Of a DNA stretch of 64,000 nucleotides, positions 41,101 through 62,900 are shown piece after piece; the stretch's first letter is position 1, and each line of letters starts with the position of its first letter. The notes beneath the pieces were generated by a model, which saw only the letters and a program-made list of their open reading frames with translations, did no database searches and was not told the origin of the DNA. This stretch comes from Apostichopus japonicus (lineage: Eukaryota > Echinodermata > Holothuroidea > Aspidochirotida > Stichopodidae), in the NCBI RefSeq assembly GCF_037975245.1, contig NC_092576.1, forward strand, positions 30,916,611 through 30,980,610, in the 5' to 3' direction. Made by a program: the position numbers and the translations under genes.

Positions 41101-43881
41101 CTGAAACTTTCTTAAATGTAGAGATGACCCAAGAGGACCATCACGCGACATGATTCGTGGAGTGGAGGCTACTCTCAACGTTTTAGCGAATCTTTTTGTC
41201 GGCACCTTGTTTGCTATAACAAGCGACTTGGATGCCGCAGTCAAGTCATGCAAAGGTTTTACATAAAAATCTGGCGGGTCACATGAATGAGGAAAACAAT
41301 TACTCCACATGCCTAGAAAGAACTTCCGAAGACCTATGCCTATCCAATATTCCATCCAAGGATGAAAGGGCAAACGAGAGTTCAATTCGAAGGAGAGCAG
41401 GGGTTCAAGGGCCATTACCCTCACCGTACTACCTATATCTGTCAACTCCAGCCCTCCTTCGTGACTGTTATGTAGATGGCCCGTGCCACCAGTTCCGTGC
41501 CACCCTTCCATATGAACTTAAAAATAACCTCATTATCCTGCTTCGGATCCTATCCGGTAAATGATAAACAGGTGCCATATACCAGAATATTGGCGCCACA
41601 AGTACGTTCACTGCTTTGACTCTACCAATGATTGAAACATTCCTTTGTTTTGCCTTCTCTACAGAGTTTTCGGCCTTTCGGACTCTTTCTTTCCAGCTCA
41701 AAATCTCTGATCGACCTGGACCAAAATAAACCCCATTAATTTTGATCGACTCACAAGCCCACAAAATGTCCAAAGGAATGTTACAATTTCTCTATTTGCC
41801 CAACTTAAGACCTTTCGTCTTAGACATGTTGAGTTTGCTTCCCGTGGCCAACTCAAACTTCTTGAAACATTTGAGAAACTCTTCGTAGAGCCAAAGTCAC
41901 TTTGAAAAAGCAGTAATGTCGTCCTCGTACTGCATTATCTTGGCACTTCTGCGCTTTCCTCCAGGTGGGCGGATTCCCCTGATGGTATCAATGCTGTCTA
42001 TGCGCCTAGCCAACGATCCCGCCAAAAATGATATACAGTAACGGGGAAAGCGCACAACCCTGTCGGACACCTTGCTTGACTGGGAATGATTTCGTAATAA
42101 AACCATTAATAAAAAGTACACTTGAAATATCAAAATACGAGCCCATTAGACGAAGTTAGGGCCAAACCCGAACTTTTCCAAAACACTAAACAAGTACTGG
42201 TGGTCCACCCTGTCAAAGGCTTTCTCCAGGTCAAGTGACACTATGGCCCCACCCATGTCCCTGGACGATATAAAAGCTACTATATCCCTGAGCATCAGGA
42301 GGTTATGATGTATGCCCCTGACCTTGACTGCGCCCGTCTGGTGATCGTTACTTATGTCAGGCAACGCTTTCGACATACGCATGCTCATTGCCTTGGACAG
42401 TATCTTGTAATCCGTATTTAACAGGGAAATAGGCCTTTTGTTCGCGGGTTTCCTACGATCTCCTTTCTTATGGAGGAGCGTAACAACTGCAACTCTCTGG
42501 GAAGGGGATAACGAACCCCGCACCAAAGATTCGTTATACAGTTCTAACAGGTCAGCACCGATGAAATCCCAGCACTTCAAATAAAACTCCCTTGGCAACC
42601 CGTCGCTGCCAGGCGATTTGTTTGGGGCCATCGCCTTGACCGCAGCGAACAATTCCTTCGAGGTGATAGGCTCCTCCAGCCCTGCTGAAATCGGGGTATT
42701 TACCGTTGTTTCCAATGATGCTGAAAATTCCCCTTGCAACTCTATGTCGACGTCTTTTTTAGAGAAAAGTTCCCTATAAAAATCCACATAGACGTCCCCG
42801 ATTCGCTGTGGGTCTGATGTAATATACCCCTCTGGCGTCTCCACAGCATCAATATGGCGATCCTCCGCATTCTTTCTTTCTTCAGCGAACATCTTTGACG
42901 GTCGCCCCTGCTGATCTAAGAAAGACATGCGGCAACGAACCTTCGCACCCTCCGATTTTTTGTCTAGCAAGGCTTTCAATTTGACCACGGCTTCCGCGTC
43001 CGACGGGTTGCCTTGAAGCTTCTTACACAGTGCTGTAAACTCATCGTCATACTCTTTGTTCTTGCGTTTCGAATGTTCGATGGCCAAATCTTTAACATTA
43101 GATTTCACCATCTCCCACCAATCAGCGGTTGAATCAGCGAATTCAAACCCTCTTTTAACGTCCGCCTGCCCAAGTAACGCCCTCTTAACTCTTCTTTGAA
43201 AGTACGGTACTGTAACAGCTGAATATTCAACTTCCATCGACCTGGGCCAACTTTCGGTGGACCCGAAGATCTCAATTCAAGGAGCACACCACATAAAACG
43301 CAAGGTACAATCTCGCACAGGTTAGGTTAGCAGCGACCCCAATCGGCGTATAAAAACCTGACGAGACGCGACGCCTGACCCGTCGCTTCCCGCCTCGAAG
43401 TAAACTCTCTCTGAGAAGGGTGGATATTCCTCCAACCGTCTTCCAGCCGGTTAGTATTACAAAGTAAGTTTAATTCAATATCCACACGAGAAGGGGCGTG
43501 GACAGTGGTCTGCAGCTTGTCCTGTGCTAAATCCGGGACACAATTAAAGTCTCCGCATAACACGACTGGTAACCTTCCAGAAATATACGGGTACATTTTT
43601 TTTTAAAAGGACTTCCGCCGTGATGCCTCATTCGAGGCGTTAATATTGCAGAGCCGGAAACCATGATCCGGACCGATCACATCACAAGCCAAATCCAAAG
43701 AAACCCGTCCAGTCTCTCCGAGAAAACCAGTCCGAAGCAAGGTAGCAACCCCGCAACTAGAATGGCTTCCCAGAGAGAACAAGACCGAGCCCTTCCAAAC
43801 GCGCCTTAACATTCTGATGTCTCCTAACCCAAAATGGGTTGTGGACAAACTACATCTAGGTGCTTCTGCAGTCTGATCCAC
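41098..43881 (-). pseudogene. LINE family C ORF2 (endonuclease-RT), frameshifted
   Basis: Endonuclease parts at 43,881-43,327 (SHSSCGVATLL, CGDFNCVPDLAQDKL). Reverse transcriptase at 43,237-42,146 with NKSPGSDGLPREFYLKCW, KKGDRRKPANKRPISLL and SLDLEKAFDRVD. The YADD-equivalent reads QYEDDITAF at ~41,930, so the first Ala is changed. The C-terminal part extends to 41,098. At least four frame breaks make it inactive. The 43,237-42,146 frame is a long intact stretch of 363 codons. Confidence 0.75.
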
Positions 43882-44183
43882 TGCAAGAGGCGATCCCTTT
43901 AAAGGGGATTCCTCAACCCATTAGCATTGAGTGTCAGAATGGAAAGACACGCCATTAAAGCTGTGAAGCTTTTCTCAACTTCCGTCCGCTCTTGTCGGCA
44001 TCAAATCGCTGTCAGACGAGTCGCTGCAGTCTGCGTCTGACACGGCGAGGTCTCTTTTAAGGGAAACGGGAGGTACCGCCTCTTCACCCTCGTCCATTTC
44101 GGACCCGGAACCGTCCGACACGTGGGGGTTTGGGACTTTGGACCCTCCACCCTTTTCCTTTGAAGCCTTGTCCTTCCTTTCTT

Positions 44184-45119
44184 TTACTTTACACCCTTCT
44201 TTCCCTTCCCTTCTTTCACTCCCTTTTCCTTTCCTGCCTCTTTTCTCCCGTCTTCTTTCACCTCCATGTGTGTGGGAACATTGGAGGGCCCAATGTCTTC
44301 CTCCACGACCATGCTCTCAACCACACCCGTGGCTACTCCCTTTTCCTCCTGTGAAATAGTGGCAGCGGCAGGCTCCACAGATCCGGATGGAGCTGTGGGT
44401 GCCGCGGGGGTGACTACCGTCGGAGGTGACTACCGTCGGAGCCTCTCCTTCCGAATCCGATCCTTGGGACTCTCTATCCCATGCCGCCGTTGTATGCGCC
44501 TTCCTTGCAAAGGATATCGGGCACGGAACGGATGGCCCAACTCCAAACAAATCGAACAACGTATGCCCTCCTTGCAGTCCTTGGACTGGTGACCCAGCCC
44601 CAAACACACAAAAAACATTTCAAGTTGGGACACTCCTTTTTACGGTGGTCTCGGCCCCCACATCGCAGGCAGGTGAACGGCTGCCCAGGATAGCGAACGG
44701 ATATGTTCTGAGCGTCAATCCGAAGGGACGAGGGGATATCCTTTTCAAGCATAACCTTGTACTGTCTGTTACCATTACATATACTCGGATATTCTGGGTA
44801 TACACACCACCGGGAGGCGACCACCTTCCCGTACATCCCCAAGGCAAACTTCACAATGTTGTCGTTCAACTCGTGTTCTACGTTCAGTACAGTAACAACG
44901 ACAGTCGTTACTGTACGGCTCCACCGCTACACTGGGCAACCTCCTCAAAACCTTTACGAAAGCTCGCTTCAATGCTACCGTCTTCAACGTAACATCCAGG
45001 GACTTTTTGGGCAGGACCTGCACTGCATCTAGAACAGACGCAACAGTAGCTCCAACACTTTCCAATACATCGAAAACCTGCCTCGGAGTACAAACACCAT
45101 CTGCACACCGAAGCAACAC
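44184..45119 (-). pseudogene. LINE family C ORF1 (CCHC protein), frameshifted
   Basis: Minus-strand pieces: CTPRQVFDVLESVGATVA, DAVQVLPKKSLDVTLKT, then FALGMYGKVVASRW (the family's VLGRFGKV block), a CCHC knuckle CLRCGGRDHRKKEC and partial second knuckles. The C-terminus (44,378-44,184) is Lys/Glu-rich and comes from a pyrimidine-rich run at 44,160-44,265. Several frameshifts. Confidence 0.65.
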
Positions 45120-45127
45120 ACTACAGT

Positions 45128-45282
45128 GCTTTTTACGTAACCCTCCCTGCGGGATCTAAAACGTCACGGCCAAACGGCATTACCCAACCATCCCTTTCTG
45201 ACAAACAAACCTTCAGTCAAGCGAGTCAAAAAAGTAAATACACTCCCGACCTGCAGAGGCGTAACTCCAACCACCCACCCAA
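45128..45282 (-). mobile_element. LINE A-related 5'-truncated copy inserted in family C
   Basis: Minus-strand match to the family A 3' UTR (ctctgcaggtcggg..., then gtttggccgtgacgttttaga, ending ttacgtaaaaagc). It is diverged from A1, so either old or from a sister family. Flanked by 10-bp duplications acactacagt at 45,118-45,127 and 45,283-45,292. Removing it rejoins the family C 5' region. Confidence 0.85.
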
Positions 45283-46310
45283 ACACTACAGTTGCGCCTG
45301 ACCGGTGAGGCAAAACCGATGAGGGAAAACCACAAATCCGCAAACCGCAAAGAACATACTTTTCTTTCAAGTTTATTCAAACTTAATAACAATACAACAT
45401 ATATCAAATTACATCATATAAGATTTTACAGTATATTTACAGGATGTTAAATTAGTGAAAAAACGATATGCTTACGTGAAACTACTTCATACAAGTTTCA
45501 TAACATAATCTATCATTAACAACACGAAGAAATGTACTTCCATTTGTCCATAACTTTTTAAACTTATCACCCGGAAAACGCTTGAAATCTGCTCTAATAC
45601 GAAAAGTTCGTTTTAATTAAATAACATCATCATCCGAAATGAAACGGGATTCAAAGACATGAATACAACGAGCTTTTCAAATATAAAACCTACATACGCA
45701 GAAAAGCAAACCAAATCCTATCATACACCTCCTTTGGAATACTGGGCGCCGGAGCGCCGAACAAAAAGAAACTTTGACTAAAGAAAACATTTCCCGCTAT
45801 TTTGGTAAAAACCCGGCTCACCCACAGGAGAATACCATAAACCCTTCGAAACTCCCAGAAAAGATGTGACAAGGACTCACTCTTACCACACCCTGAAAAA
45901 GAACAAAGACCCCTCCCTATACCCCACCTTTTAAGTCTCTCCCTCTAAGGCCGGGTGAAAAACCGCCTTCCAAATGTCACACCACGGTAATAAAGGAAAA
46001 TTCCTCGTAACGCTAGGTAAAACATTCTCCCTTTCACGGAGAAGGGACACGATATACTTTACCGAAAAACGATCCAATACAAAATGACTGACATTCCTAA
46101 ATAAATATTCAATTATGTCACAAGCAAGTGCCAAAGACGGCGTACACTGGTCGCTGTTAGGTCGTAATTTCACCACAGCCCCAACCGGCTGAAACCTGCG
46201 TAACCGCTTACTGATGAAATAACGAATTAAATATGCAGAACATATCAAAGGATCATCAGACAGAATTCTCAGGACAGGCCTGGCCAACAGCATTTAGTTT
46301 CAACTTAAAA

Positions 46311-47677
46311 TTATCCAAACCCAGACCCCCCCCCCTCCCTATTGTCGAGCATAACGACCTTTCTCGAAACTAGCTCCGTTTTCCCGGACCAAAGGAACGA
46401 AAAAGAGACTTTAAAAACCTTCTTGACCAACACCTCGGGAAAAGGGAAACCTGCAGCTAAAAAGTAAAACAATGGATATACTACGACATTAATGAGTATG
46501 ACCTTACCCAATAATGTTAAAACCCTAACCCTACCCTTCCACATATCAATTAATAACTCCATTTTCTCAAACTTTTTACTCCAATTACTATAAATAGAGT
46601 TAGGAGTACCAAAAACAATTCCAGCGATTTTTATGGCCGTCTCACTCCAGTTAATATCAGCTGATAAATAAATACACGCACCTGTGGCTCTACGAAACAA
46701 ATCAATAGTATTGAAAAACCCTTTCACATCACCATGACAACTAACGACGCACGTGGCGTCGTCAGCATACTGTAAAAATTTCACAGTCTTGCCGCTGCTA
46801 CCAGGGAGTGAAAGAGCCCTGATACCTCTAAGGGGAGAAATGTAGCGAGCAAGAGGCTCGATAAACAAAACATACAATGGCGGTGACAAGGGACACCCTT
46901 GTCGAACCCCTCTCTTAATAAAAACAATACCGGATAAACGACCGTTGATCATTATACGGCTACAAATACCGGTATACAAAATACTGATCGACATACAAAA
47001 ATATCCTACGCAAAACGCCCAGTCGACCGTGTCGAAAGCTTTGTGCTGATCTAATGAAATCAGTGCACAGGAATTTCCTTTCAAATTAACATAATCAATA
47101 ACATCGCGAATAACAAACAAATTCTGATAGAACGACCGGGAACGGAACACGTTTGAAAATCATTTACAAGGGAGGACATAACAGTAGAAATTCTTTTCTG
47201 TAATACTTTGGAAATAATTTTGTAATCAACAGTCAGGAGGCTGATAGGCCTCCTGTTGTCCTCCTGTCGTCCTCGCGTGTAGAAAAACAGATTCTTAAGA
47301 AAGGAAACCCGCTCTTTTGGAGAGCAAGGCGCGTACACATTACAAAAACGAATAGAATAAGAATCTGAAAAGGTACAAATTACTGAAATACAACGTCCTA
47401 CATTGTCGCTGTTAACTTGCGAAAATTTACAACGTAATTTGGAAGAAAAGGCAATTGCAACCCCACAGGAATGAGAAGAAACCGCCGGAGAATAGAAAAC
47501 CGGCCCGTCCCAAATAGTTTTGAAATACGTAAAATCATCAGTACATAAATATGTTTCTTGTAGAAAAATAACATCAAATTTAAACAATTGCATCCAATTT
47601 AAGACATTTCCACGCTTTGCATGATCACGAATACCATGAACATTAATAGTTGCTAAGGTAATATAGATATTAGCCAT
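46311..47677 (-). pseudogene. LINE family B ORF2 in B2, deletion between EN and RT
   Basis: The endonuclease start ATINVHGIRDH...FLQETYL...SHSCGVAIAF is fused at ~47,280 to the RT stretch NRRPISLLTVDYKIISK. The long RT frame 47,150-46,311 includes [26 protein letters not shown] and LQYADDATC. The catalytic endonuclease GDFNC and SDHD segments are missing, so it cannot nick a target. Confidence 0.8.
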
Positions 47678-47759
47678 TAGAAAGTGATGAAAAAATACAT
47701 TACAAATCTTTAAGAAAATACTGATTCAAATACGAAACATGCATACATACAAAATGTGG

Positions 47760-48990
47760 GTGTTGTGAAGACAAATGCATAGCCCACTCGAACGGATTGG
47801 TACAATGTTTATTGCACGACTTCAACGGGCACTCGAATCACGTAGGGCTGATCCCAAGGTGGCGTTCCTTTAGGTGACAGAGAAAGTCGCGGTAAGGTCT
47901 AAAACTCGTCTTGCACTTCTCTCGAGCACACGAAAACCACGGCTTTTCCTCCGTCACGACGTTCGCGACGCGGACAACGTCTTTCGCTTTCTGCACTGCG
48001 GGCGAAACTCGGTATAGGGAACGGTACCTCCTGGGGGGCGTAGAGGGCGGTCGCTTCAGTCCCTGTCTGACCTCGGTGAACTCGTCACCCACATCGCTCT
48101 CCATACCTCGCTCATCTGATGCACCGGTTCCTGGTGGCACGTGTATGGTGGCCTGGACCTCCAAAACCGTGGGCTTTTGGGTGGGGGTGTCTGGTATGGC
48201 GTCGGCCCAAGACTGACCGATAGTCATAACCTCATCCAGCTCTACCTCTCTTTCCGGGCTAAACAATGAACTGCTGCTGGTTGGTGTGTCATCGACCATG
48301 GTGACGTCATCATCAGACTTGGTTACGTAAACAGCGCTGACATCAGCGGACGGGACGGGCTCCTCGTCACCAGGCTTGGTGGCGACACTGACTTCTGGTG
48401 GGGTGGGCCCCTCCTCACTAGGTGGTAGTACCTCGGCTGCACCGCCCACCCAAGCTTTCGAATGCATCAGCTTGTTCGCAAAGGAGACCGCACAGGCTGT
48501 GTAGGCGTTCCCGGCCTTACTACAGGTGGTACATATCTGCTTCTCGCTGCATGCACGAGACACGTGGCCAACCTGGAGGCATCTAAAACAACGGATGACG
48601 TCACAATTCCTGGCATCGTGGCCTGCAGCTCGCGGCCACCCAGACTCAGAGAGGACGGAATGTCGGTTGCCATCTCCATCCTGTACTGCCTCACGCCGTT
48701 CTAAGCTCCGGGTACTCTTTGTGGGTGAGAAAACGGCCGGAAAAGACTTTGCCGTATCTCCCCAGGACGTAGCGGACGGCGTTGTCGTTCAACTCGTGGG
48801 GCACGTGCAAGACAGTCACGATCTTGACAGCATCAGTGTATGCTGTCGCTGTGACGTCACTGGCCACTCGGAATACTGGCCAGAACTTCCGCTTCATCTC
48901 CACCGACTTGAAGGTTACATCGAACTTGCCACCAGGCAGGGACTGGACGGCAGTTAAATGTTCTGCCGGACTAACTAAATACCTTTTCAA
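47760..48990 (-). pseudogene. LINE family B ORF1 in B2 (CCHC + C2H2), frameshifted
   Basis: Pieces carry LPGGKFDVTFKSVEMKRKF, YVLGRYGKVFSGRFL, cysteine-rich knuckle remains, an acidic middle, and C-terminal fingers CAREKC...FLCHLKERH and CPLKSCNKHCTNPFEWAMHL (the latter in a shifted frame near 47,810-47,760). Order agrees with B1 and B6. Confidence 0.75.
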
Positions 48991-49072
48991 AACTTCGAAA
49001 CATTTCCTCCCTCAACTTTCAAGAGGATACTACAATCTCTTCTCGGATTATGCTCCATAACGCTGCATAAAA

Positions 49073-49097
49073 CTTAGCCAAAAGGCCGAGAAGCGAT
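49073..49097 (-). ncRNA. U2 snRNA gene 3: first 25 nt (gene interrupted)
   Basis: Minus strand reads atcgcttctcggccttttgg then ctaag, the invariant U2 5' end (stem-loop I region up to the branch-point-binding vicinity). It is then cut by the LINE at 49,072. Its promoter lies at 49,098-49,551. Only a few U2-like bases are left beyond the LINE at 45,352-45,360, so this copy is dead. Confidence 0.9.
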
Positions 49098-49551
49098 AAC
49101 GATAACTAAAGACAATTGCCAGCGTTAGGCTGTTTTACGACTTACCTTCATTCTGAAACTGACAGATATGGTAAGCCGATGACTGCTCTGATTTCTAAAT
49201 ATCACCTTATTTTTACCCTCGCTACGCCATTCTATATAACTTGAAGGTGTTTACAAACTTCGTTGTCCGCACATTATCACTGTTCCGCCCGGGTCCAGTG
49301 TTAGGCCTGAAAAATGAAAAGGTCTATCTTAACCCCATGTTTTGACTGTGCCGAGAAATCGTTGGCCGGGAAACACTATGTGACGTCACAGAAAGAGAAT
49401 TTCCCTGTGACGTGACCGACAAATATTTCCGATTTGTTGTATAAATGGAAATTCCTGCGTATCAATTCGCTTAATCCGCGAGGGAAGATCAACAGGTAGG
49501 TAAGGTATCTCTTTTAACTTTCTTTTATATTATTGATGGGAGTAGGCCGAA
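49098..49551 (-). promoter_or_regulatory. U2 gene upstream region (repeat-unit spacer, PSE-like block)
   Basis: Nearly the same as 54,696-55,125: gttatcgtt directly at the start site, and tctgtcagtttcagaa(t/c)gaa about 50-70 bp upstream, the position of the proximal sequence element in snRNA genes. Further up are conserved blocks such as gtccagtgttaggcctg and a tgacgtca site. The strong conservation between units over ~400 bp fits a tandem U2 gene array transcribed toward lower coordinates. Confidence 0.75.
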
Positions 49552-49710
49552 GGGAGTGGGCCGAATCCCGGAGGTAGTGCAAAACCGGGCCAACCCGTGA
49601 CCAGGACGGAGCAAGCTCCTATTCCATAGTCCGTGTGCAAAAATCAGTTTAATATAACAAGCGACTCGATGAGTCGCGTTTCAGATATTAAGCTGAAAAG
49701 AAAAGATACT
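49552..49710 (-). ncRNA. U2 snRNA gene 2: 3' part after the LINE
   Basis: Minus strand from 49,710: agtatct..., ttcagcttaatatctg, a stem-loop II (gcgactc-atc-gagtcgc at 49,661-49,677), an Sm-type site tgatttttgc, tatggaataggagcttgctc (stem-loop III) and a stem-loop IV-like ccgg...ccgg ending ggcccactccc at ~49,552. With the 29-nt 5' piece at 54,667-54,695 it makes one U2 gene of ~190 nt split by B1. About five target nucleotides (tgtgt) are not accounted for. Confidence 0.88.
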
Positions 49711-50112
49711 TTTCTTTCAAGTTTATTCAAACTTAATAACAATACAACATATATCAAATTGCATCATATAAAACTTTAAAGAGTATATTTACAGAAAAAT
49801 AAATTAACAATGATTCTGATAAAAATAAACCAAAAGAAACAAGATGGTACAAACTGTCGGCATTAGCCTCTTAATTTAACGAGAACATAGAAATACTGTT
49901 TAATACATACCACAAAAAATATGAAACGTTACGGAAGGTTACAAGCTACCCCTTCCTGAAGAAAGAAACACAATATGGAACCTTCGACCCACGTTTTCTT
50001 AAACCTTTCTCTGGACCATCTTTTAAAATCAGCTAACACCCGATTTCTTATTTCATTCTTCACATCTTAGAGAAAAACAAAATCGTTCGGCTTAAAATTT
50101 TCGAAAGCCAAT

Positions 50113-53100
50113 TTACACCGGCGATTCCACAAAGCTCGTCGAACCACAACAATAAATTAACCATACTCGTCCCAAACCAAATTTGGCCCGTCCGGCGAAG
50201 GCAAAACCGTACATAAAAAGTACTGATGTGAAACTACAATTAAAACCAATAAACCGTTTGACAATCTCGTTAACCCAAATTAAAATACCATAAACGGAGG
50301 CGCACTCCCAAAAAACATGTAAACTTGTCTCCAACATGCCCCAAAATGGACCCCCCCCCCGTCCCCCAGCCTCCACTTTAGCAGCTTACTTCTGGTAGGT
50401 AAAACATTATGTGTCGACCTCCAACTAAAAGACTTAAGAGAGTTACACAGAAGAGGATGAAAAACAAGAGCCCAGATGGGAGGCCAATCCCGGTTAGGAT
50501 GAACCTGCTCAACATGGGAAACAACATTTTGCGGACTGAACAACTTAACCAAGTCCCGGGTCGATTTGTGAGTAACCACAAAATTCGACTCCGTCCTACA
50601 CAACTCAAAGATGTAATCACTGATCTGCGAAAGCCTCCTTGACACATCATCAAAATTAGGGATTAAATTAGACCATAAACGCGGGAAAATGCGTCTATGC
50701 TTACTAGCTACAAAATAACGGAAAAACAGTTGCAGGACGCATTGTCAGTCCCATTCAAAAACGGTATTAAAACTTTAACATGTAAAGCCTTCATTTTACA
50801 TACTACATCTTCCAACCCCAGGCCTCCTTCCCCCACCCCCGTCATGACCACCTCTCTCTTAACCAACTCCGTCCGCTTCTTCCAAATAAACTGAAAAACC
50901 AGTTGAAGGACCTCTGTCAAGAAAACATTGTCCGGTATATATATATACCGGGGCTACGTAATAAAACAAGGAGAATATACAAGAATTAATAATGTTAATC
51001 TTTCCAATAAAGGTGAGAATGCGTGAACTCCACGCTTCCAACTTTCTCTTGGCTTTTTGGAAAAGACCCTGCCAAAACATATGAATATAATTACAATTAC
51101 CAAAACAAATTTCATTAATGACCATTTGACTTTCTCCCCAGTCAATGTTCCCCTTTAGCTTTCGACCCACAAAGCTACCCAACTTTAACCCCTGGGTCTT
51201 ACTTAAATTCAAAGATGCCCCAGTAGCTTTCTCAAAGAAAGAGAAAGATTCGAAAAACTTGACCATATCCCCCTGAGAGGTCGCCACACAAGTGGCATCG
51301 TCTGCATACTGAAGGAGCTTAACAGACTCCCCCCTCCCCCCGGAATATGAAACCCTCTCATATTATTACACTGGAGAATATACTGAGCAAGTGGCTCCGT
51401 AAACAAAACATATAAAGCAGGCGACAGAGGACAGCCCTGACGCACCCCCGCAGGATGATGACGTCATCAGAGAGCTGACCATTCACACTAATCCGACTTG
51501 TAATATTACTGTACAAAATATTGACCCATGAGCGAAAATATGGACCAAACCTTATTCGCCGTAAAACTTTAAACAAAAAATCCAAACATACCTTGTCGAA
51601 AGCCTTATGTTGGTCAATGGAGATAATCGCACATGGACCACCTCTACAGTTACTGAACTCAACCACATCCCTAATAATTGAAAGATTCTGGTGGATAGAC
51701 CTACCAGGTACAGAAAAAGTTTGAAATTCGTTTACAATATCTGGCATAACCTGGCATAACCGCTGTTGTAAAACCTTAGCAATAACTTTATAATCTGTCG
51801 TTAATAAACTAATCGGTCTGCGATTGGCCGGATCCAAAGGATCCCCCTTCTTAGGAAGGAGCGTGATGACGGCCGTACGTTCAGAAACTGAAAGCATCTT
51901 CCTATAAAAAATTTCGTTATATATATACACAAAAGATCTTCCCCTAAAAAATCCAAAAAGGAAATATAAAACTCTGACGGTAACCCATCAATTCCGGGCG
52001 ACTTATTCTTCGCCATTAACAAAAACGCTTTCTTAATTTCATTTAACTGAAAGGGCTTGTCCAAAACCACCGCCTTCTCGGCGGAAACTACCCTGGTAAT
52101 ACGGTCTAAAAAGAGATTCTGAATATTAACATCAACATTCTCCACTGAAGAATAAAGATGAGAATAAAACTCGTGAAAAACTTTACCATTTCCCTCCCCA
52201 CTGACAACCCCACCCCTTGAGCTCCTGACCTCCTTAATAACCTTTGACTCTGCACACCTTCGCTCTGAAGTACAAAAAAAGCTAGAGGGTTTCTCTCCAT
52301 CCTCAAAACTTTTCCCTGAAGCGTATGACTGAACCTCTTCTCTCCTCCGCCAAAAGGCGGGCAACAGAATCCTTACACCCTGAGAGACACCGGGACTGCA
52401 TCTCAGAGACGCGCAAGCGCCTCTCCCGCGCCCGTCTAACCCCATGTGAAATAAATATCTCCTTGATTCGAATTTTAATAACTTCCCATCAATCAACCAA
52501 ATTATCAAAACCCGGCTGAAGGGTACGCCATAAATTATACAACATTGAAAAATCGTTCTTAAACATTTCCAATAACTTTTTTTATACACTGTTTCTTCCA
52601 AGGACGAAGAAATTACAGTATTGACAGCGTCATGATCAGAGAAAACACAATTGAGGCAAGTGCGCTCTCAATAACAAAACCCGAAGGAACGTAAATTCTA
52701 TCGAGCCTTGAGCTACGACCTTTGCTCGGGTGCATCCAAGTGTGTCCACTCTCTGCCGTATAGAAAAAACACCAGCAATCAACTAGCTCTAAAGAATCTA
52801 ACAGCGAGGAAAGTTCTTCCTTTCCAACAAAACACGAAGAATTCAGTGAGTCGCCGGAGCGATCTGCACTGGACATAACACAATTAAAATCACCTCCTAG
52901 AATGACTGGCACGTTGCCACGGGTGAAAGAATACAAGTTCTTAAAGAAACGAATAGTTCTTTAGGCACACACGGCGCATAAACATTGCACAAACGAAAAG
53001 AGGTATTTTTAATACTACATAAAATTGATACACAACACCCGGAACTATCGTTCCTTAACTGTGTACACTTACAACTAAAAGAACGTGATAAGGCAATAGC

Positions 53101-53319
53101 GACCCCACAAGAATGACTGGAGGCCGATGCTGAGTAAAACACCGGCCCATTCCACACACTCGTGAAATGCAAAAAATCCAATGAATTAAGATACGTTTCT
53201 TGTAAGAAAATAACATCAAACTTAGAAATTTTTAACCAACCCATTACATTATTACATTTAACCTTGTCTCTCAAACCATGCACATTTAACGAACAAATAG
53301 AAAATTTGAAGGTGTACAT
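50113..53319 (-). pseudogene. LINE B1 ORF2: endonuclease-RT (many frameshifts)
   Basis: Begins ATG at 53,319, which overlaps the ORF1 stop as TGATG. Endonuclease: [99 protein letters not shown] and the YADD region near 51,310. The C-terminal tail runs to 50,113 (SLHVFWECASVYGILIWV). At least seven frame changes. The domain set is complete, so the ancestor was autonomous. Confidence 0.85.
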
Positions 53320-54618
53320 CACCGATCTTTAAGAAAATACGTGCTAAAAAACTGAACATCGTGCTCCAAAACAAATGTCGGGTGTCTCGACGCCAGGTGC
53401 GAAGCCCACTCTGCCGGGTTGTTGCAGCTGACCGAACACCATTTCAAAGCGCAGTTTACCCGACCGACCTCGAAATCGGGGTGCGCTGTCCCCACGTGGC
53501 ACATAAACTCCTTAAACGATGGAAAGGCTTCGTCGCATTCCGAATGCAGACACGAGAACCAATCACCCTTTCCACTGAAAATATCTGACTTTCTGATCAT
53601 TTCCTTTGCTCTCTCGGAGCCTGACACCTTTCTCGCTCTTGAACGCGACCGCTCCCTTCTCTTCCTCAAGTCATCATCAGCTTCGCTTTGGCGTTTAACG
53701 CCCTTCTCCGCTGCCGCCCTCTCTACCTCCATCTCCTGCTTTTTCTGCCAACTTCCCAACGCCGCGGCCACCGCCTCCTGTACATTCACCGCAAAGATAC
53801 TGTTTTCCGGGTTCTCTGCTTCCTCTTGCAGCTCCTCCAAGACTTCCCCAGACGGAAGGGGGGGGATACTCCACCAACTTCTCTTGCTCTACCTCTACCG
53901 GTTCCTCCTCCTTCTCCACCACCACCTCCTCCTCCACCACCTCCTCCTCCATCGCATGACCAGCGCCTGCGCTGTCATCCACGACTACGTTAGCGCCCCC
54001 ACTGACCCACGCCGTTGTCGAAGCCTTCAGTTTGTTGGCGAAGGACACGGGCAAGCCTTGCACCCGTGTCCTGACTGGCCACACGTCGTACAGGACGACG
54101 CCGAATCGCAGAAACGGGCGGAGTGTCCCAGCTGCTGGCAGTTAAAACACCGCATCTCGGCGCACTCCCTCGCCACGTGTCCCCTGGCACCACACTTGAG
54201 GCAGGTCCTTGGCTGGCCGAAATACCTCACCCAGCAGTATCTTCCTCCCAAGCTCAAAGAGGACGGGATGTCCTTCTCAACGACAACTTTGTACTTCCGT
54301 ACACCGTTGAAAATATTAGGAAATTCTTTACAAGTAAGGTAACGACCACACAAGACTTTGCCGAAACGTCCAAGGACGAGGCGCACCACGTTATCGTCCA
54401 GCTCGAAAGGGACATGGAGGATCGTCACCACTTTCACTCTACTGGCATATGACGAAGACGAAAACTTCGGGTCATTACTTAATGTCGGGCCAAAAGCGCC
54501 CTCTGATCTCGGCTGACTTAAAAGTGACGTCATAGCAACGGCCGGGAAGTGACTGAACTGCCACTAGGTGTTCAGCTGGTGAAACGCCTTTCGACTTCAA
54601 AAATATCGGTAGACTCAT
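53319..54618 (-). pseudogene. LINE B1 ORF1: CCHC knuckles plus C-terminal zinc fingers (frameshifted)
   Basis: ATG at 54,618 (MSLPIFLKSKGVSPAEHLVA). LPGRCYDVTFKSAE, a frame break at ~54,480, then LVLGRFGKVLCGRY, three CCHC knuckles (CLKCGARGHVAREC, CFNCQQLGHSARFC, CTTCGQSGHGCKAC), another break at ~54,040, an acidic Glu/Val-rich linker, a basic RKRRERSRSRARK stretch and two C-terminal fingers, CLHSECDEAFPSFKEFMCH..H (C-x4-C-x12-H-x4-H) and C..CNNPAEWASHLASRH. It ends TGA at 53,319, overlapping the ORF2 ATG. The C2H2 pair is a plausible DNA-binding module; this is inference. Confidence 0.8.
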
Positions 54619-54666
54619 TTCTGTTAAACTTTATCTTTACCGAACATTCTCTCACTAAGCTCTCCA

Positions 54667-54695
54667 TGATCTTAGCCAAAAGGCCGAGAAGCGAT
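54667..54695 (-). ncRNA. U2 snRNA gene 2: first 29 nt, 5' of the LINE
   Basis: Minus strand atcgcttctcggccttttgg then ctaagatca, identical to the conserved U2 5' end. Joined in the unmodified gene to the part at 49,710-49,552. Confidence 0.92.
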
Positions 54696-55125
54696 AACGA
54701 TAACTAATGACAGTTCCCAGCGTTAGGCTGTCTTACAACTTACCTTCGTTCTGAAACTGACAGATATGGGAAGCCGATGACTGCTCTGATGTCTAAATAT
54801 CACATCACCTCATATGTACCCTCGTTACGCCATTCTATATAACTTGAAGGTGTCTACAAACTTCGTTGTCCGCATTATCACTGTTCCGCCCGGGTCCAGT
54901 GTTAGGCCTGAAAAATGGAAAAGGTCTATCTTAACCGCATGTTTTGACTGTGCCGAGAAATCGTTGGCCGGGAAACACTATGTGACGTCACCGGAAAGTA
55001 TCTCCGATTGGTTGTATGAATGGAAATTCCTGCGTATCAATTCGCTTAATCCGCGAGGGTAGATCAACAGGTAGGTAAGGTATCTCTTTTAACTTTCTTT
55101 TTTTATTATTGATGATATCCCCGAA
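54696..55125 (-). promoter_or_regulatory. U2 gene upstream region (second spacer copy, PSE-like block)
   Basis: Homologous to 49,098-49,551. tctgtcagtttcagaacgaa lies ~50-70 bp before the U2 start and gttatcgtt abuts it. It carries the same cttggccggg.. and tgacgtca words but lacks a ~20-bp insertion present in the other copy. It separates the U2 3' part at 55,126 from the U2 5' end at 54,695. Confidence 0.75.
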
Positions 55126-55260
55126 GGGAGTGGGCCGAATCCCGGAGGTAGTGCAAAACCGGGCCAACCCGTGACCAGGACGGAGCAAGCTCCTATTCCA
55201 TAGTCCATGTGCAAAAATCATTTCAATATATAAGATATTAAGCTGAAAAGAACAGATACT
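55126..55260 (-). ncRNA. U2 snRNA gene 1: 3' part, missing stem-loop II
   Basis: From 55,260 on the minus strand: agtatctgttcttttcagct, then taatatc joined directly to ttatatattgaaatgattt; the rest matches the 3' part of gene 2 (tatggaataggagcttgctc to the ggcccactccc end). It is 24 bp shorter than gene 2 because the stem-loop II segment is deleted. The 5' part is not in the window: a truncated LINE takes its place. Confidence 0.85.
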
Positions 55261-56284
55261 TTTCTTTCAAGTTTATTCAACCTTAATAACAATACAACAT
55301 ATCTCAAATTACATGATATAAAACTTGACAGTATATTTACAAAATGTTAAATTAGTGAAAACCAATATGTCAACATAAAACTACTCCATACATGTATCAT
55401 AACATAATTTATCATTAACAACACGAACAAATGTACTTCCATTTGTCCATTACTTTTTAAACTTATCCCCCGAATAACGCTTAAAATCTGCTCTAATACG
55501 AAACTTTATATCGTTTTTAATTAAACAAATAACATCATCATCCGAAATGAAACGGGATTCAAAGACATGAATACAACGAGCTTTCCAAATATAAAACCTA
55601 CATACGCAAAAAACAAAGCAAATCCTATCATACACTTCCTTTGGAATACTGGGCGCCGGAGCGCCGAACAAAACATTTCCCGCTAATTTGGTAAAAATCC
55701 GGCCCACCCACAGGAGAATACCATAAACCCTTCGACACTCCCAGAAAAGATGTGACAAGGACTCACTCTTACCACACCCTGCAAAAGAACAGACACCCCT
55801 CCTTATACCCCACCTTAAGTCTCTCCCTCGTAATCAAAACCCTATGTGAAAAACGCCATTGAAAGGCAACAAACTTATTCTCTAAAGCCGGGTGAAAAAC
55901 CGCCTTCCAAATGTCACACCACGGTAATAAAGGAAAATTCCTTGTAACGTTAGGTAAAACATTCTCCCTTTCACTGAGAAGGGACACGATATACTTTACA
56001 GAAAAACGATCCAATACAAAATGGCTGACATTCCTAAATAAATATTCAATTACATCACAAGCAAGTGCCAAAGACGGCGTACACTGGTCGCTATTAGGTC
56101 GTGAATTTGACCACAGCTCCGGCTGAAACCTGCGTAACCGCTTACTGATAAAATAGCGAACTAAGTATGCAGAACATAACAGAGGATCGTCGGTGAGAAT
56201 ACTCAAGACAGGCCTTACCAACATAGCACTAAGTTTGAGCTTAAAAATCTCCAAACCCAGACCCCCTTCCCTCTTGTCGAGCAT
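55261..56284 (-). mobile_element. LINE family B, 5'-truncated, at the same U2 position (B3)
   Basis: Minus-strand ORF2 C-terminal region from KREGGLGLEIFKL (56,284) through YFISKRLRRFQ and RNFPLLPWCDIWK to RRVYGILLWVGRI, then the 3' UTR ending at 55,261 against U2 agtatct. Same junction base as B1. The U2 5' part expected beyond 56,284 is absent; a different repeat lies there. Confidence 0.85.
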
Positions 56285-56575
56285 ACCCTAATAAAAATTC
56301 CTCACGAGAACCTCGCGAGAAACTCTTCGTGAGATTTTGGGCACATGAGAAATCTAAATTCTCATGAGAAAATGTTGCGAGAAACTTCTCGCGAGTAGTT
56401 ACTCATGAGAGACAGCATTTCTCGCGAGAAATTTCTCATGAGAAACAGAACTTGTTGCGAGAATTTGGATACATGAGAAAAAAATCATCAGAAAAAGCTT
56501 GTGAGAGATTCCTAATCTCGCGAGAAATTTCTTGTAAAATATCTTGGATTCTCTGAGAGATTTCTTGTTATACCC
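56285..56575. repeat. Array of TCTCGCGAGA / CTCATGAGA palindromes
   Basis: Roughly 290 bp packed with self-complementary words: ttctcgcgag, tctcgcgagaaattt (twice), ttctcatgagaaa (several), actcatgagag, cctcgcgagaaa. The spacing is irregular. TCTCGCGAGA is known in vertebrates as a promoter motif, but this density suggests a repeat family or satellite fragment. No gene start is next to it. Confidence 0.85.
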
Positions 56576-56884
56576 TTATTTTCAAGGGGTAGCTTAAAAT
56601 CACAGTTTCCTACCACTAATTGTCATAATAATAATAATATATTAAGATTCCGATTGGGGCTCACCGATGAAGCTTTGCATTTGATAAAAATATGTGATCC
56701 TAAAATATCTAATAAGCCTTATCTTTATTTTTTTTTAATTGTCTGATAAAATTACCTTAATTGTTGGTTATTAAAAAGACACAAAGTTAAGCCCATTTTC
56801 TTTATGAACACAGTTTATTGAACCTTACAATGTACATTCAGAGGAAACCACCACCATAAACTTAAAAAAATGCATTTGAAGAAA

Positions 56885-56985
56885 TCAGTATCCCTTGAAG
56901 GCCTTCTTCTCATCTCTTAACTTGGTAGACATCTTTAGTCGTATGGTAGAGACGTCTGCTCCAGGAAATTGTTTCTGACAATATG
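56885..56985 (-). other. BEN gene terminal exon
   Basis: Acceptor cttatctacag; encodes YCQKQFPGADVSTIRLKMST then LRDEKKAFKGY-stop. Phase 1, matching the previous exon's donor. Confidence 0.75.
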
Positions 56986-59900
56986 CTGTAGATAAGTAAA
57001 CAAAAAAGAAATGTAACACACACAACCTTAATCATAACCTTCTTTGAAATAATCAATAAGGCTATGTTAATGCAGTTAATTGTTTTGTTAGATTGGTCAT
57101 CTGTCCAATGTTTATATGTATATATAATATTATGCATGTTCTTACAAGAGCTACATCGCAGGCTGTTTGAACGTTATGGGGTTAACCTAGAGCCAGTTTT
57201 GTTGCTACTGGGACAAACAGTATGAATAACATTTTGTATGTGGTAAATAAATAAATGCTACTGTTTGAGCCATAGCGCTTTCAAAATATTTGTGCAGTAC
57301 AGCGTACGTAGTGTGTTGCTCAACAAACATCAGTCATCAGTGCCATGCGTTGTTGTGAAGTGATTAATCAAGTTATAATATGTCTGGCTTACCTTCATTT
57401 CCTCGTTAATAAACTTAGTACAATATTGATAAGAAATTATATTCTATATACTCATACACTTACCAATAATAGCTTGCACTTTCTCCACAGGAAGATAATC
57501 TTTCCCATTTCTTCCAGAGAGACTTCTGCTTGCCATGTCTCTTCTCTGAAAAATGGCTGTCATTAAGTTGCAGACAAGTCCACCCAAGGTCTTCGCAACA
57601 CCAGCTCTTCTCAAAATGTTGTCATCGATGACAAAGTTCTGTGGACTACATAAACAGTACCAGTAAAGAAATTTTTGATGGGTCAAACCACTTGCCTTAT
57701 GGTTACAATTATCAGTGCAAAAATTTGACATTTTTTGGTTGTCATAAACCTTGTTCTTCTTCTACACATCACTGCTAAAGTGCTGCTAAGCTGAAACTGC
57801 CTATGAACCCACAGTAGGTGGCTGAAATTATTTTCCATCCATGTGACATTTAATTACAAACAGTCAATACCATATACAAAAGAGTACTTGCATTTGACAT
57901 CACACAACTTTTTGCAGCCCCCTCCCGGAGGGTAAACATGTAACACTGCATACGTGGAGTGCAGACGTGTTTTTCGCTCTCGCTCTCGCTCTACATCTGA
58001 TAACTTTTTTCACTGTACTGTACTGTGCTATACTTCCCGCCAGGCGGGTGTGCGCCAGTTCGTATATCGTTATCGTATATAGTCATCGTATATTGTATTG
58101 TATTTTATCCAACCTATCTTTAGTTTGTTTTGTTACTCCTCTGTGGCCCAGCCACCTTCGGTATCATGGCATCGCGCCGTGATTCCAAAATTGTTAAGTT
58201 AACCTACACCGGTGAACAAGCGGTTCCACCGGTGCAAGTTTTTAGTATTTTAAAGAGTAAGGGTGTTGTTGTGCCTGGAGAGGTTGATGCGTTGCAAGCT
58301 CTCCAGGGTCGTAATACTTATGATGTACGTTTTACAAGTGACGTGACCCGGCAGAAGGGTGTCACGTTGCTGAGTGGGGTTGAAGGTTTGACAGTTACTC
58401 CATACGAGCGTGTTCCGTATGGGTAACTGTCATCCACGTAGGACTAGAGGTGCGTCAGGAACTTGTCGCAACTGTTTTAGGTCGGTTTGGGGCTGTCAAG
58501 GCCATCAAAATGTGCTCCTACGCACAGGCCCCTGGGGTGTTGAACGGGCACCGACAGGTTCGGATCGACCTCAAGCAGGACATTCCCTCCTTCCTTTTTA
58601 TTGCCGGGCATAAAGCTCACGTGCGTTACCCCGGTCAGCCCCGTACCTGCTTCAGGTGTGGGGAGACCGGGCACGAAGCCAAGGGCTGCCCAAACAAAAA
58701 GTGCGGGCGCTGCCTTCGTCTTGGGCATGATACCTCTGCTTGCCCAAGCGAAGTTGTGTGCTCACTCTGTGGAAACGAGGGGCATGTTTTTCGCGCTTGT
58801 CCCTCCTCTTATGTCTTTATGACAAAGAGTGGGGGTCAATCAAAAGCGCCAAGTTCTGGCGCACCTACTGCCTCGGAGGAAGCTCCACGCAAAGAGGGGG
58901 AACCGGATGCACCTAGTTCACCCTCCCCCGTAGTTGCAGACCCCAACCCCGTGCCCGCACCGAGAAAGTCCCCACCAGCTTCCCCTATCAACTCGTCCAG
59001 TTCCGTCCCCAGTCCGCCGCCGGTATCGCCAGATCCGGAGACTCTGTCCGACGGCGACTCCGGGGACTCGGTGGTCATCGGGTCTCCGGAGGCTCTGTCT
59101 GACAGCGACTCCGGGGGCTCGGTGATCGTCGAGCCAAAACGTGCCACTGGGACGAGCTGGTACGACGAGATGGGGGAACCCTCTCTAAAAAGGTCGGCCT
59201 CAAGTGACGACTCGGACGACGATATGTCGTCTAGAGCGCGCTTGAAGCTTACAGAATCGTCGTCGGCGTAGTTTTGCCCCATTGCCCTCTCATGGCCCAT
59301 ACATTTTCAGTTGCCACTTTGAACGTGAATGGCATGAGGGATCATCGCAAGCGCAGTCGCATTTTCCAATATTGTATTTCAATGGAGGTCGACTGAGTTT
59401 GCCTGCAAGAAACACATATTTTGGAAGAAGATGTCCCTCTATGGGCTTATGAGTGGGGTGGTGGGCTGCATGCTTCGTTTGGTTCGTCTTCATCCTGTGG
59501 CACTGTCATCCTTCTGTCACCTCGTCAGGCGGGTTGTGCCACTAGGGTGGAGACGGATCACGAGGGCCGATTGGTTTGCATTCTTTTCAAGTATACACAG
59601 GGTAACATCTCCCTCTGCAATGTGTATGCTCCCAATCGGCCTTCTGCTAAACGAGAATTTTTTAACACGCTGCCTTCCTTTGTTCCTGGTAGTGCACCAT
59701 GTGTCATGGTCGGAGACTTTAACTGTGTCCCAGACTCGGGTCTTGACAGACTCGGGGCTTCTGTGTCTGCTAGTCCTGACGCTGGGATCACAGAATTGGA
59801 CAGATTCACTTCGGCACACCTTTTAGCCGATGTCTGGAGGCATATGCACCCGTGTAGTACGGTGTATACGTGGGTGAGGCCTAACGGAGAAGATGCCTCC

Positions 59901-62900
59901 AGGATAGATCGAGTGTATGCGCCCGTGAGTTTACATTTTCGGGTTGCGAGACGCTCAGCTGTCCGCTCTCTGACCATGACACTGTAGTAGCACGGTTTGT
60001 TTTGCCTTCCATTTTCCCCATCGGGCGGGGCCTATGGAAGCTTAACTGTCGGATTCTTGGCGAGGCAGAGTTCCGCCAGGGTGTCGAGACCAGGTACAAA
60101 GGATGGCAAACATTGAAGCCGGCCTTTGCTTCTACATCCCAATGGTGGGATGATGTCAAGTTGCGCATCAAACGCTACGCAATTCAGTATTGCGTGACCC
60201 GCGCACGGCGTCGAAGAGAAAAATTCTCGAAGCTGTGCGCGGAGGTGAAGTTTGGCGACCCTTTGGCTGTCATCGCTTTGCAGACTTATCTCGATGAAAA
60301 GTACCACGGTGCCCGCGTGAGGGCCCGTGTCGAAGCGGTGGAAGCCGAGGAGCGCCCTTCACTGAGGTTTTACCAGTCCGTTAGCTCATCGGCAGGTGAC
60401 AGACGCGTCCCGTCTGTGTGCACTACTGATGGGACCGTGGTCAGTGACCCTCACGGCATTGTCCGCGTATATAAAGAGTATTATTCGAGTTTGTTTACGC
60501 GTGGCAATGTCGACTTGTCGGCACAGGCTGATTTATTGAGGGGAATCTCAAAAACCGTTCCCCACGATGTCAATGATATTTTGGGGGGCGAAATAACCAC
60601 TGTTGAGCTTTGGAAGGCGCTTTCGAAGATGAAGAATGGCAAGTCCCCGGGTTCGGACGGGCTTCCGAGGGAGTTCTACCGAACCTTCTGGGCAATAATA
60701 GGACCCGACATCAGAGCCGTCTTCGAGGACGCCTTCCAAAACGGACTGTTAAACCAAAGTCAACGTCTGGGCATGATTACTTTGCTGCCCAAGTCTGGGG
60801 ACCCCTTGGATCCCCGTAACAAGCGTCCGATCACCTTGTTAAATGTGGACTACAAGTTGCTGGCTAAGGCTTTGTGCAACCGCCTTGCACCGGCTATGCC
60901 GCATCTTGTGGGTGATCTCCAGACTTGTGCAGTGAAGGGTCATTGCATCCAGCAGAACTTGTGGTTGATGCGCGACTTGACCGACTTTGTTATTGAGCGT
61001 GATCTGCCATGTGCATTTGTGTCTCTGGACCAGCAGAAGGCCTTTGACATGGTGGATCGCGGTTTTTAATGAATGTATTGGAGACGTTTCAGTTGCACCC
61101 AAATTTTCGTAAATGGATTTCTGTTTTGTATCAAGAAAGTTTCAGTTCTGTTATCGTAAATGGGTTTTGTTCGGAGGTTTTTAACGTAGAGAGGGGGGGT
61201 GCGCCAGGGGTGCCCACTGTCTCCATTACTTTATGTTTTGTTTAGCGAGTCCCTCTCTCGTCTTTTGGAAAGGGACTCCAGATTTCTTCCATTCGTTGTG
61301 CCAGGGGGTGCCAAAGTGAAATGCGCTCAATATGCAGATGACGTGACATGTGTTGTTTCGAGTCTGGGCTCCTTTCGCGCACTCTCGCAGGATTTATCTA
61401 TTTTTGAGAGAGCTACCGGGGCGAAGTTGAATCCAGAAAAGACAAAGGGCCTTCGTCTTGGTAGCTGGAGATACAGAGACTTACCATTCGGTGCGTCGTG
61501 GTCGGATCAGAATATCAAAATTAATGGTATATGGTTCGGCTACGATGCACCTTGTGATGTCACCTGGAGCGAGAGGGCTGAGGTATTTCAGAGCAGACTC
61601 GAAACCTTTGGCATCCGCTGGCTTTCGATCTTGGGGAAAGTCACCGTTATTAATCGTTTTGTTTCGCCCATCATGTGGTACCCGGGCGCGGTGTACCCAA
61701 TTCCGCGTCGCGTCCTGGTGCGGTTGGAGAGGGCGATTTTTTCATTCATATGGTCTGGTGGTACAGAGCTGGTCAAGAGGGCGATATTGTACCAAAAACT
61801 GGAGAAGGGGGGACTAGGGGTGGTTCATCTGGGAAGTAAGTTAACTTGTTTGTTATTTAAGCAATTGTTTGTAGCGGTAACTGACCCAGGGTTGCCTTGT
61901 TCATATTTTGTACGTTTTTGGGGCGGGTTGCACTTGCGTCGATGGGTTCCGGCGCTGTTTAGCAACAGAGAACCGCATAGTAGCACACCAAGCAGAGTGG
62001 TGCGTGTCATTTGCTCCGCTCTTATTGAGTTGCCCCCTGTTGACCTGTCACGGCCGGCCCTCGTTCTCAGTTCCTTGCGGGATAGGGCCTTGAATGCAAT
62101 TTTTGTACAGGGACGTCATCCTGTCGAAGTATGGCGTTCGGTGTGCATTCAAGGCTGAATGGTTGCAGGCTCCGTGATCTTGCATGGAGAATTGCACACG
62201 GTGCCTTGGTGACCGACCGACCGACCGTTTATCGGGAGACCGTTCCTGGTCGGTAGGACAGGGTTTTGTTTTATATGGATTAGATCCCCCAGTTTGTTCC
62301 GTTGCTGTGTTGCAGCGTATTATTTATGTTTGTTCTGTTGTAAAAAAAACTTATTTGGAGGAATAGATGTGATGTTGTTTTTAGGGGGAAATTTGCCAGT
62401 TGGCAAGCAGTCCTGGAGGCGGTGAAGTCTGACATTCGCCTTCAGGTTGAAGGCGATTTTCGCCGTTTATCTAGGGCTGCCTTTTTTGGACGGTGGTGTG
62501 CTGGGGAAGGGTGTTTTGTTTCGCTGCGTGCTGGTCGTCCTTTTGTAGTTTTTTAATATTTCAGTGGGGGGGGGGGGGTTGGGCGTTTTGTCTCTGCAGG
62601 TCGGTGAGCGTATGTACTTTTTTTTGGCTCGCTTGACCTGAAGTTCGTTTGTAAGAATGGGATGGTTTGGTAGTGCCGTTTGGCCGTGACGTTTTGTATC
62701 CCGTATGACGGGTCACGTAAAAAGCACACTGCATACGATGGTGTGTGACCCAGCATTGGTTTGCGTGTAACGTTAGCTTAGTTAGCTATAGTAGCACTAG
62801 CAGAAAACATGTACACGTGCATAGGGTCGTTATAAAGAAGACTTCTGACTGATTTTTTTTTATGAAAAACCAGATGATACAAACCGTGCTACAAGCACAA

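Follow-up and report, generated by a model that had tools for sequence, protein, structure and literature searches.

The U2 locus and its insertions

The window analyzed here, a stretch of 64,000 nucleotides (nt) of the Apostichopus japonicus genome (C16:30916611–30980610; 671.6 Mb in 35 contigs), contains genes for the U2 small nuclear RNA (snRNA) that are interrupted by long interspersed nuclear elements (LINEs); the adjoining 196 kb to the right were also read. Coordinates of up to five digits are those of the window and eight-digit ones those of C16. Tandem U2 units on the minus strand had been proposed in an initial annotation made from the sequence alone, and two Rfam U2 matches on that strand (49551–49743, 120 bits, and 55125–55293, 85 bits, with a gathering score of 46) bear them out. 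Read along the minus strand, the tail of a first LINE (B3, 55261–56285, the 3′ ~1 kb of an F6-type element, equivalent to positions 3952–4998 of the F4 reference) is followed by a U2 3′ half from nt 35 on, with an internal deletion (55125–55260; RF00004, 84.8 bits; AGTATCTGTTCTT at 55248–55260), by the spacer and U2 promoter region of the repeat unit (54697–55124), by U2 nt 1–29/31 (54665–54695, 100% identical to U2 nt 1–31), by a second LINE (B1, family F5, 49711–54664) and by another U2 3′ half (nt 35–193; 49551–49710; 98.1% identical to live copies by BLAST). Further along come a second spacer and promoter region (49098–49550), U2 nt 1–25 (49073–49097), a third LINE (B2, family F4, 45361–49072), a 12-nt U2 remnant AGTATGTTCTTT (45349–45360) and, in tandem behind it, an F2-type LINE (41113–45348) that is 91.3% identical over 4,124 nt to the F2 of the array described below. 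The promoters were rightly called conserved; against a live array unit the two regions showed 98.7% identity over 310 nt and 95.4% over 304 nt.

Other parts of the first description had to be modified. A single insertion point holds at the 3′ side, where the ends of the three elements plus the following AGTAT are identical over 25 nt (45356–45380, 49706–49730 and 55256–55280), with a fourth such end at 3391–3415 (three mismatches) and no match in 100 shuffles. The 5′ junctions, however, differ, since B1 starts after GGCTAAGATCA(TG) (nt 29–31) and B2 after GGCTAAG (nt 25). The three LINEs had been taken for one family, but B1 differs from B2 and B3; B1 and B2 could be aligned over only 415 nt in all (72% identity), and B1 is about 65% identical in DNA to the full-length F4 relatives of B2. 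As described, B1 is near full length, with similarity to ORF1 and ORF2 (the two open reading frames) of families F1–F4 by tblastn, although its frames are broken (the longest sense frame has 288 amino acids), and B2 is internally deleted (residues ~149–519 of ORF2 are missing as a tblastn gap; 88.6–88.7% identity to three F4 copies of the array). B3 is not 5′-truncated. Its 5′ part, which reaches position 3953 in F4 numbering and is joined to a U2 5′ half, lies 21.6 kb upstream (C16:30994540–30998369), behind a later insertion, and the break between them falls at F4 positions 3952/3953. This insertion inside the F6 LINE (C16:30972896–30994539) has imperfect inverted ends with TA on each side; its low-coordinate part (56286–64000, no strand assigned) includes a nested LINE of a further family, WA (58119–62728). 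As to the three units said to be each interrupted, those of B1 and B3 keep a U2 3′ half, but the far side of B2 is the 12-nt remnant and the F2-type LINE.

The other LINE families, the occupied live array and the short interspersed nuclear element (SINE) described below all lie beyond the segment that the initial annotation covered.

A homogenized array with a decayed edge

The U2 array consists of 645-bp units on the minus strand and extends from the window to ~31.170 Mb on C16. Genome-wide there are 90 U2 3′ halves (85 on C16, four on C15 and one on C20) and 60 uninterrupted U2 sites (56 on C16 and four on C15). The remaining 29 of the 85 C16 genes are all interrupted at one site, a figure that includes gene 31065127, which carries an indel and was added to the 28 of the junction listing. 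Their occupants are F1 (seven genes), F2 (seven), F3 (three), F4 (four), F5 (one), F6 or a compound insertion (two) and the SINE alone (five). Spacer matches of at least 380 nt were 99.1–100% identical to the reference unit above 31.01 Mb (n = 81) and 90.0–92.6% below (n = 4), so that the window is the decayed edge of one homogenized tandem array. In the homogenized part the element copies are near-identical, while decayed ones are located at the low-coordinate edge. The first uninterrupted gene (C16:31015207) is found ~35 kb beyond the right end of the window, in agreement with one of the two options offered at first, a graveyard next to an intact array; the count of intact and interrupted loci proposed as a check is the one given above. 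Since 56 array genes (two of them split from their promoter by a LINE) and the four C15 genes remain uninterrupted, the host would be able to tolerate the insertions.

In the two split genes (31041097 and 31046410) a 4.7-kb LINE separates the gene from its promoter. The two copies involved (C16:31041098–31045768 and C16:31046411–31051081) are identical, 4,671 bp long and directly upstream of U2 nt 1, with an ORF2 of 961 amino acids about 25% identical to the Keno types, and are probably one insertion duplicated together with the array. At C16:31004234–31006611 a U2 spacer piece of ~150 bp forms ~13 tandem repeats. The four dispersed U2 genes of C15 (3624569, 6370771, 6478680 and 6532126) have upstream flanks that are alike among themselves and unlike the C16 array, i.e., they make up a second U2 gene class. 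None of the four is interrupted, a number too small for significance.

LINE families sharing one U2 position

At least five diverged LINE families of the Keno/Tx1 type (F1–F5) use a single U2 position, and F6 is a relative of F4. In the array we found six copies of F1 (5,314 bp) plus a truncated one, five of F2 (about 5,040 bp) plus two truncated, two of F3 (about 4,980 bp) plus a diverged one, and four of F4 (about 4,998 bp), to which B2 is added in the window. F5 is B1. F6 has two copies, one of them within a compound insertion, and is perhaps an F4 subfamily, judging from its 75–81% DNA identity to F4. The amino acid identity of ORF2 was 53% between F3 and F4, 51% between F1 and F4, 47% between F1 and F3, and 36–37% between F2 and these three. 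In several F1–F4 copies both frames are open from stop to stop. F1, F2 and F4 have an ORF1 with CCHC zinc knuckles and an ORF2 with Pfam matches to PF03372, an endonuclease of the apurinic/apyrimidinic (APE) type, and to RVT_1, the reverse transcriptase (RT); for F3 and F5 the endonuclease-RT assignment is by similarity (the F3 ORF2 at the identity to F4 given above). The best PDB matches of the F4 ORF2 were to L1 ORF2p (3e-74), with R2 far weaker (1e-19). Judged by domains and insertion site, the LINEs are probably new Keno-type elements, in line with the U2-specific Keno group first proposed.

Their confinement was examined with the last 300 nt of each of F1–F4, a search whose counts are lower bounds and in which the F5 of B1 had no query of its own. 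Among the matches listed, 7/7 for F1, 7/7 for F2, 3/3 for F3 and 13/13 for F4 were located in or beside the array, all on the minus strand of C16 between 30.875 and 31.169 Mb, and no prevalence of insertions elsewhere was seen. The 13 of F4 are matches and not copies, since one copy accounts for two of them and tails of F5, F6 and B3 are counted as well; those to the left of the window (two, at 30874858 and 30885337) are assigned by position. F4 3′ ends were 98–100% identical above 31.01 Mb and 84–93% below.

In a tree of six proteins, F2 did not join F1, F3 and F4 but grouped with WA (85/92, not starred), and the U2 LINEs formed a single group in 6% of the bootstrap trees. Monophyly of U2 specificity is thus disfavored in this tree, which weakly suggests two origins of the specificity or one loss. 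The WA family itself is Tx1-like (10800–15760, 58119–62728 and 1–1009, all on the plus strand), with open ORF1 (11022–12155) and ORF2 (12119–15577), the latter 34–39% identical to the F1–F4 ORF2. It is not bound to U2; a 5′-truncated copy at 45126–45285 lies within the F2-type LINE, flanked by copies of ACTGTAGTG.

In the interrupted genes U2 resumes at nt 39 on the 3′ side (AGTA/TCTG), and the flank is TCTGTTC in the 29 genes, or TCTTTTC for B1. F2 ends exactly before TCTG, while the other LINEs end in AGTA, which is ambiguous with U2 nt 35–38. The dispersed SINE copies retain AGTA ahead of unrelated flanks, and at least in the SINE this motif therefore belongs to the element. The 5′ junctions of full-length copies depend on the family: U2 nt 25 for F4, nt 29 for F3, nt 30 for F2, nt 30–31 for F5 and F6, and nt 50 for F1. 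Truncated copies repeat U2 nt 39–45 (two F2), 39–50 (one F1) or 39–53 (the SINE at 31134735). From the family-specific junctions, it appears that full-length LINE RNAs may carry a U2 leader made from the U2 promoter and resolved against the target by homology, as has been supposed for R2. Such a leader would not be obligatory, since the full-length junctions of F1 and of the tandem F2 of the window are of the duplication type.

These junctions also bear on whether the interrupted units could be artefacts of a collapsed or mis-joined array. Arrays of 645-bp units at >99% identity are hard to assemble. Nevertheless, each family has junctions of its own that are found again in diverged copies, that of F4 at nt 25 in the 88.7% identical copy of the window and in three array copies, and that of F3 at nt 29 in three copies, with other junctions in the truncated copies, and we regard an assembly artefact as extremely improbable.

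A dispersed SINE with a U2 head

The same site is also occupied by a SINE of ~190 nt whose head is U2 nt 1–45. Two Rfam U2 5′ ends on the plus strand of the window (31451 and 34302) mark dispersed copies of it. One (34305–34492) has the target duplication TTTTTTTACTACAC and is 97.9% identical to a U2-embedded SINE; the other (31451–31620) is without its tail, which has been lost, and is 96.5% identical to the first over 170 nt. Genome-wide, the U2 5′ 42-mer (up to two mismatches) gave 808 matches, U2 genes included. Subtracting the 60 intact genes and the about 13 interrupted ones that keep nt 4–45, we estimate ~735 dispersed U2 heads. The SINE tail was found 794 times.

We sampled 20 copies, hand-picked across ~100 listed perfect heads (all on C1–C12) and therefore leaning to young copies, and eight further loci chosen as close pairs or neighbors. 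The SINE body was behind the U2 head in 20/20 samples (17 by alignment, L023 by its tail, and L024 and L039 by eye; these three, with tails not recognized, are outside the identity and flank comparisons). Target duplications of at least 5 nt (one mismatch allowed from 9 nt) were found in 13/20, and in 8/20 ATC precedes GCTTC, a start compatible with U2 nt 1. Apart from one identical trio described below and L053/L054, which look like one duplicated locus, the dispersed copies were 81–99.5% identical to their best dispersed relative. No tRNA match was found in four SINE loci, and in the one locus scanned with Rfam there were, besides U2, two matches that did not reach their gathering scores; a mere U2 pseudogene and a SINE driven by RNA polymerase III (Pol III) were rejected on these grounds. 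WA was rejected as the LINE partner because its tail ends in GTAAAAAGC and not in AGTA. Six SINE tails lie within 1 kb at C2:21947810–21948789, a local stack perhaps formed as SINEs repeatedly landed in one another.

In the array the SINE is the only insertion in five U2 genes (31134735, 31133952, 31132509, 31059492 and 31021932) and the last part of the compound insertion before 31006776, i.e., it is present in six C16 genes; the lone C20 U2 copy has an older-type SINE at the equivalent place. Three dispersed copies, L032 (C9), L042 (C3) and L051 (C4), match the array copy at 31132509 without a difference over 188 nt. Upstream of the five SINE-only genes, 310 nt are 99.4–100% identical to the live unit, while at 0/28 dispersed SINEs did the similarity to the promoter of either U2 class exceed the best of 100 shuffles. 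Of the SINE copies compared, none but those embedded in U2 has a U2 promoter.

A preference for the site is also apparent outside the array. An exact TCTGTTC flank was found at 16 SINE ends (seven in the array, one on C20 and eight elsewhere), with 0.05 expected among 794 tails at equal base frequencies. Of the eight elsewhere L025 and L043 were read, and the others may lie in SINE heads or in other places. L025 is a young SINE inside the head of an old one, with a single seamless head. Overall, 25 dispersed insertion flanks favor T/C (23 at +1 and 22 at +2). One site is common to the LINE families and to a SINE dispersed genome-wide. One could still think of an ordinary graveyard of strictly U2-specific Keno LINEs, with an unrelated U2-headed repeat that fell into U2 by chance; in Phytophthora and Nasonia, Utopia is reported to be confined to U2, with disrupted genes outnumbering intact ones (PMC4640811). 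The 16 ends at AGTA/TCTGTTC and the six C16 genes and the C20 copy struck at one nucleotide, however, already disfavor this explanation, which we consider very unlikely.

Interrupted U2 genes as putative source genes

Lying in the sense orientation behind a U2 promoter and U2 nt 1–25 to 1–53, the U2-embedded elements should yield U2-headed chimeric RNAs. Because a U2 promoter precedes, among the copies compared, only the U2-embedded SINEs, and many SINEs start where U2 starts, we propose the SINE-interrupted U2 genes as the RNA polymerase II (Pol II)-driven source genes of the SINE. The SINE RNAs would then be reverse transcribed by a Keno-type enzyme and inserted back into U2 or into the U2 head of another SINE, or alternatively at weakly matching sites in the rest of the genome, and the copies made there are expected to be transcriptionally dead. 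The array is home to several LINE families with one shared site, and we consider it probable, from the sequence relationships described, that the SINE-interrupted U2 genes are source genes and the array a factory of the SINE.

Several points weigh against this proposal. The position of the SINE inside U2 genes, the identity of the promoters, the sequence identity with dispersed copies and the site preference were observed directly, but the transcription of the interrupted genes and the retrotransposition of that RNA we infer. L032, L042 and L051 are also identical to one another, which points to a common recent source without telling which copy it was. RNA of a U2-embedded SINE should run on into U2 nt 39–193; the dispersed copies are without these, so that an internal start of reverse transcription or RNA processing would be required. 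The promoter comparison for dispersed SINEs was a crude one, over 100 nt without gaps and in shifts of 3. With the Keno types the SINE shares only the last ~8 nt of its tail, its terminal AAAAAGTA resembling the tails of F1, F3, F4 and F5 with nothing beyond. Of the F1–F4 3′ ends listed in the genome-wide search, none lies at one of the ~735 dispersed SINE heads, although these carry U2 nt 4–45, and the targeting of SINE and LINEs is therefore not identical; LINE recognition may need sequence beyond U2 nt 45, for the same reason, or else array chromatin or transcription. In L043 a SINE occupies this site as well, but its 5′ junction is blunt instead of seamless, and the junction of the array SINE at 31021932, at U2 nt 40, is explained neither by a seamless head nor by a duplication of 7–15 nt. 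Finally, near-identical array copies may be duplicates from unequal crossover, and the 29 interrupted genes are thus not to be equated with 29 insertions.

The head could also have another origin. RT template switching from SINE RNA to U2 snRNA might have added it once or repeatedly, the embedded copies being then no sources but sporadic targeted insertions. Chimeras of snRNA and LINE-1 have been attributed to template switching or RNA ligation (PMC13174262), and repeated joining would also give several types of head-body junction, as observed: by eye, among the 100 listed of 164 matches, we tallied CCTTAGGG in 37, CCTTCGGG in 28, TTTT- or TTTC-types in 15, longer TCGA-like ones in 13 and others in seven. 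However, this leaves the promoter of a family with 794 tails unexplained, with no U2 promoter at 28 dispersed copies and no tRNA-like gene in four loci. The SINE moreover contains several TTTT runs, the classical stops of Pol III, and the U2-embedded copies share the SINE's own head-body junction, with one identical to three dispersed copies. We hold template switching to be a possible but rather doubtful origin.

If the interrupted genes are indeed source genes, insertion into an snRNA gene might amount to promoter capture. A promoterless SINE body landing at AGTA/TCTG would gain the Pol II promoter of U2 and a 45-nt head and seed hundreds of dispersed copies; the exported heads would be a portable part of the target, the “killed” U2 genes would be live SINE factories and repeated landings would re-head the family. 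To this fuller scenario we give about even chances. If true, landing inside an snRNA gene is a concrete answer to how snRNA-headed SINEs gain promoter and head.

Relation to known elements

U2-specific LINEs and U2-headed SINEs are known separately, and the proposed link through source genes would be new; no report of U2-embedded SINE source genes was recognized in the open-licence literature searched. Keno, reportedly first described by Kojima and Fujiwara in 2004, resembles the LINEs found here in its APE endonuclease and RT, the zinc-knuckle ORF1 (F1, F2 and F4) and the insertion in U2 with a flank at nt 39. The differences here are at least five diverged families in one array, with the 30 listed 3′-end matches all in or beside it, and full-length copies that, depending on the family, are without U2 nt 26/32–38 or repeat nt 39–50. 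Keno is listed for zebrafish U2 (PMC3706591). According to PMC4640811, Utopia has its 3′ flank at U2 nt 39, with several families in one U2 array, disrupted genes outnumbering intact ones and insertions in tandem, and the site of Keno, with its APE-like endonuclease, is called identical. The same site, the co-resident families in one array, the many disrupted genes and the tandem insertions are likenesses to our case, but Utopia has a restriction-like endonuclease and the families here an APE-type one N-terminal to the RT (F1, F2 and F4). Utopia was considered for the 5-kb F2 type, with Utopia-like junctions at nt 30 and nt 39, and rejected because the F2 ORF2 has an APE endonuclease; among Pfam matches to E 0.01 for F1, F2 and F4, no restriction-like endonuclease domain was found. 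In the present array, about 85 copies of an essential gene are the common home of no fewer than five LINE families and one SINE, the decayed copies lying at one edge, and this offers an assembled arena for the question, raised in PMC4640811, how strict specificity for a low-copy essential target can be maintained.

The dispersed repeat has counterparts of its own. SINEU is said to comprise the U1- and U2-headed SINEs of crocodilians described by Kojima in 2015, a work cited in PMC7245038 and PMC13174262, and by description it is alike in having a U2-derived 5′ head, dispersal and several head variants; the U2 head on an unrelated body (20/20) and the target duplications (13/20) are SINEU-like features here. 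Again by description, the differences are the host phylum and, in our case, a constant insertion point within U2 genes, downstream of the U2 promoter, and one such copy that exactly matches three dispersed ones. The R1 and R2 LINEs are site-specific in 28S ribosomal DNA and cotranscribed from the host promoter. Site-specific residence, an array under concerted evolution and tolerated loss of units are common to both cases, with cotranscription only supposed here, but the target is a Pol II snRNA gene instead of Pol I ribosomal DNA, and here a promoterless SINE is exported genome-wide.

Other features of the window and assembly

Further LINE remains are found toward the low-coordinate end of the window. 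A decayed F4-type fragment is located at 36354–37986 on the minus strand, and on the same strand an F4-type 3′ end (3397–3902) is followed by AGTATCTGTTCTTTC and then by another LINE with an ORF1, a further tandem insertion. F3-type fragments (1007–2858, minus strand) are 85–92% identical to F3. Elsewhere in the assembly, a COX1 that reads well under mitochondrial code 9 looks echinoderm-like. One COX1 stands at the beginning of contig C35, and separate COX1 pieces, containing TGA codons, form another set at C29:14745–31219; a nuclear copy, a second mitochondrial type and a contaminant are the candidates for this set.

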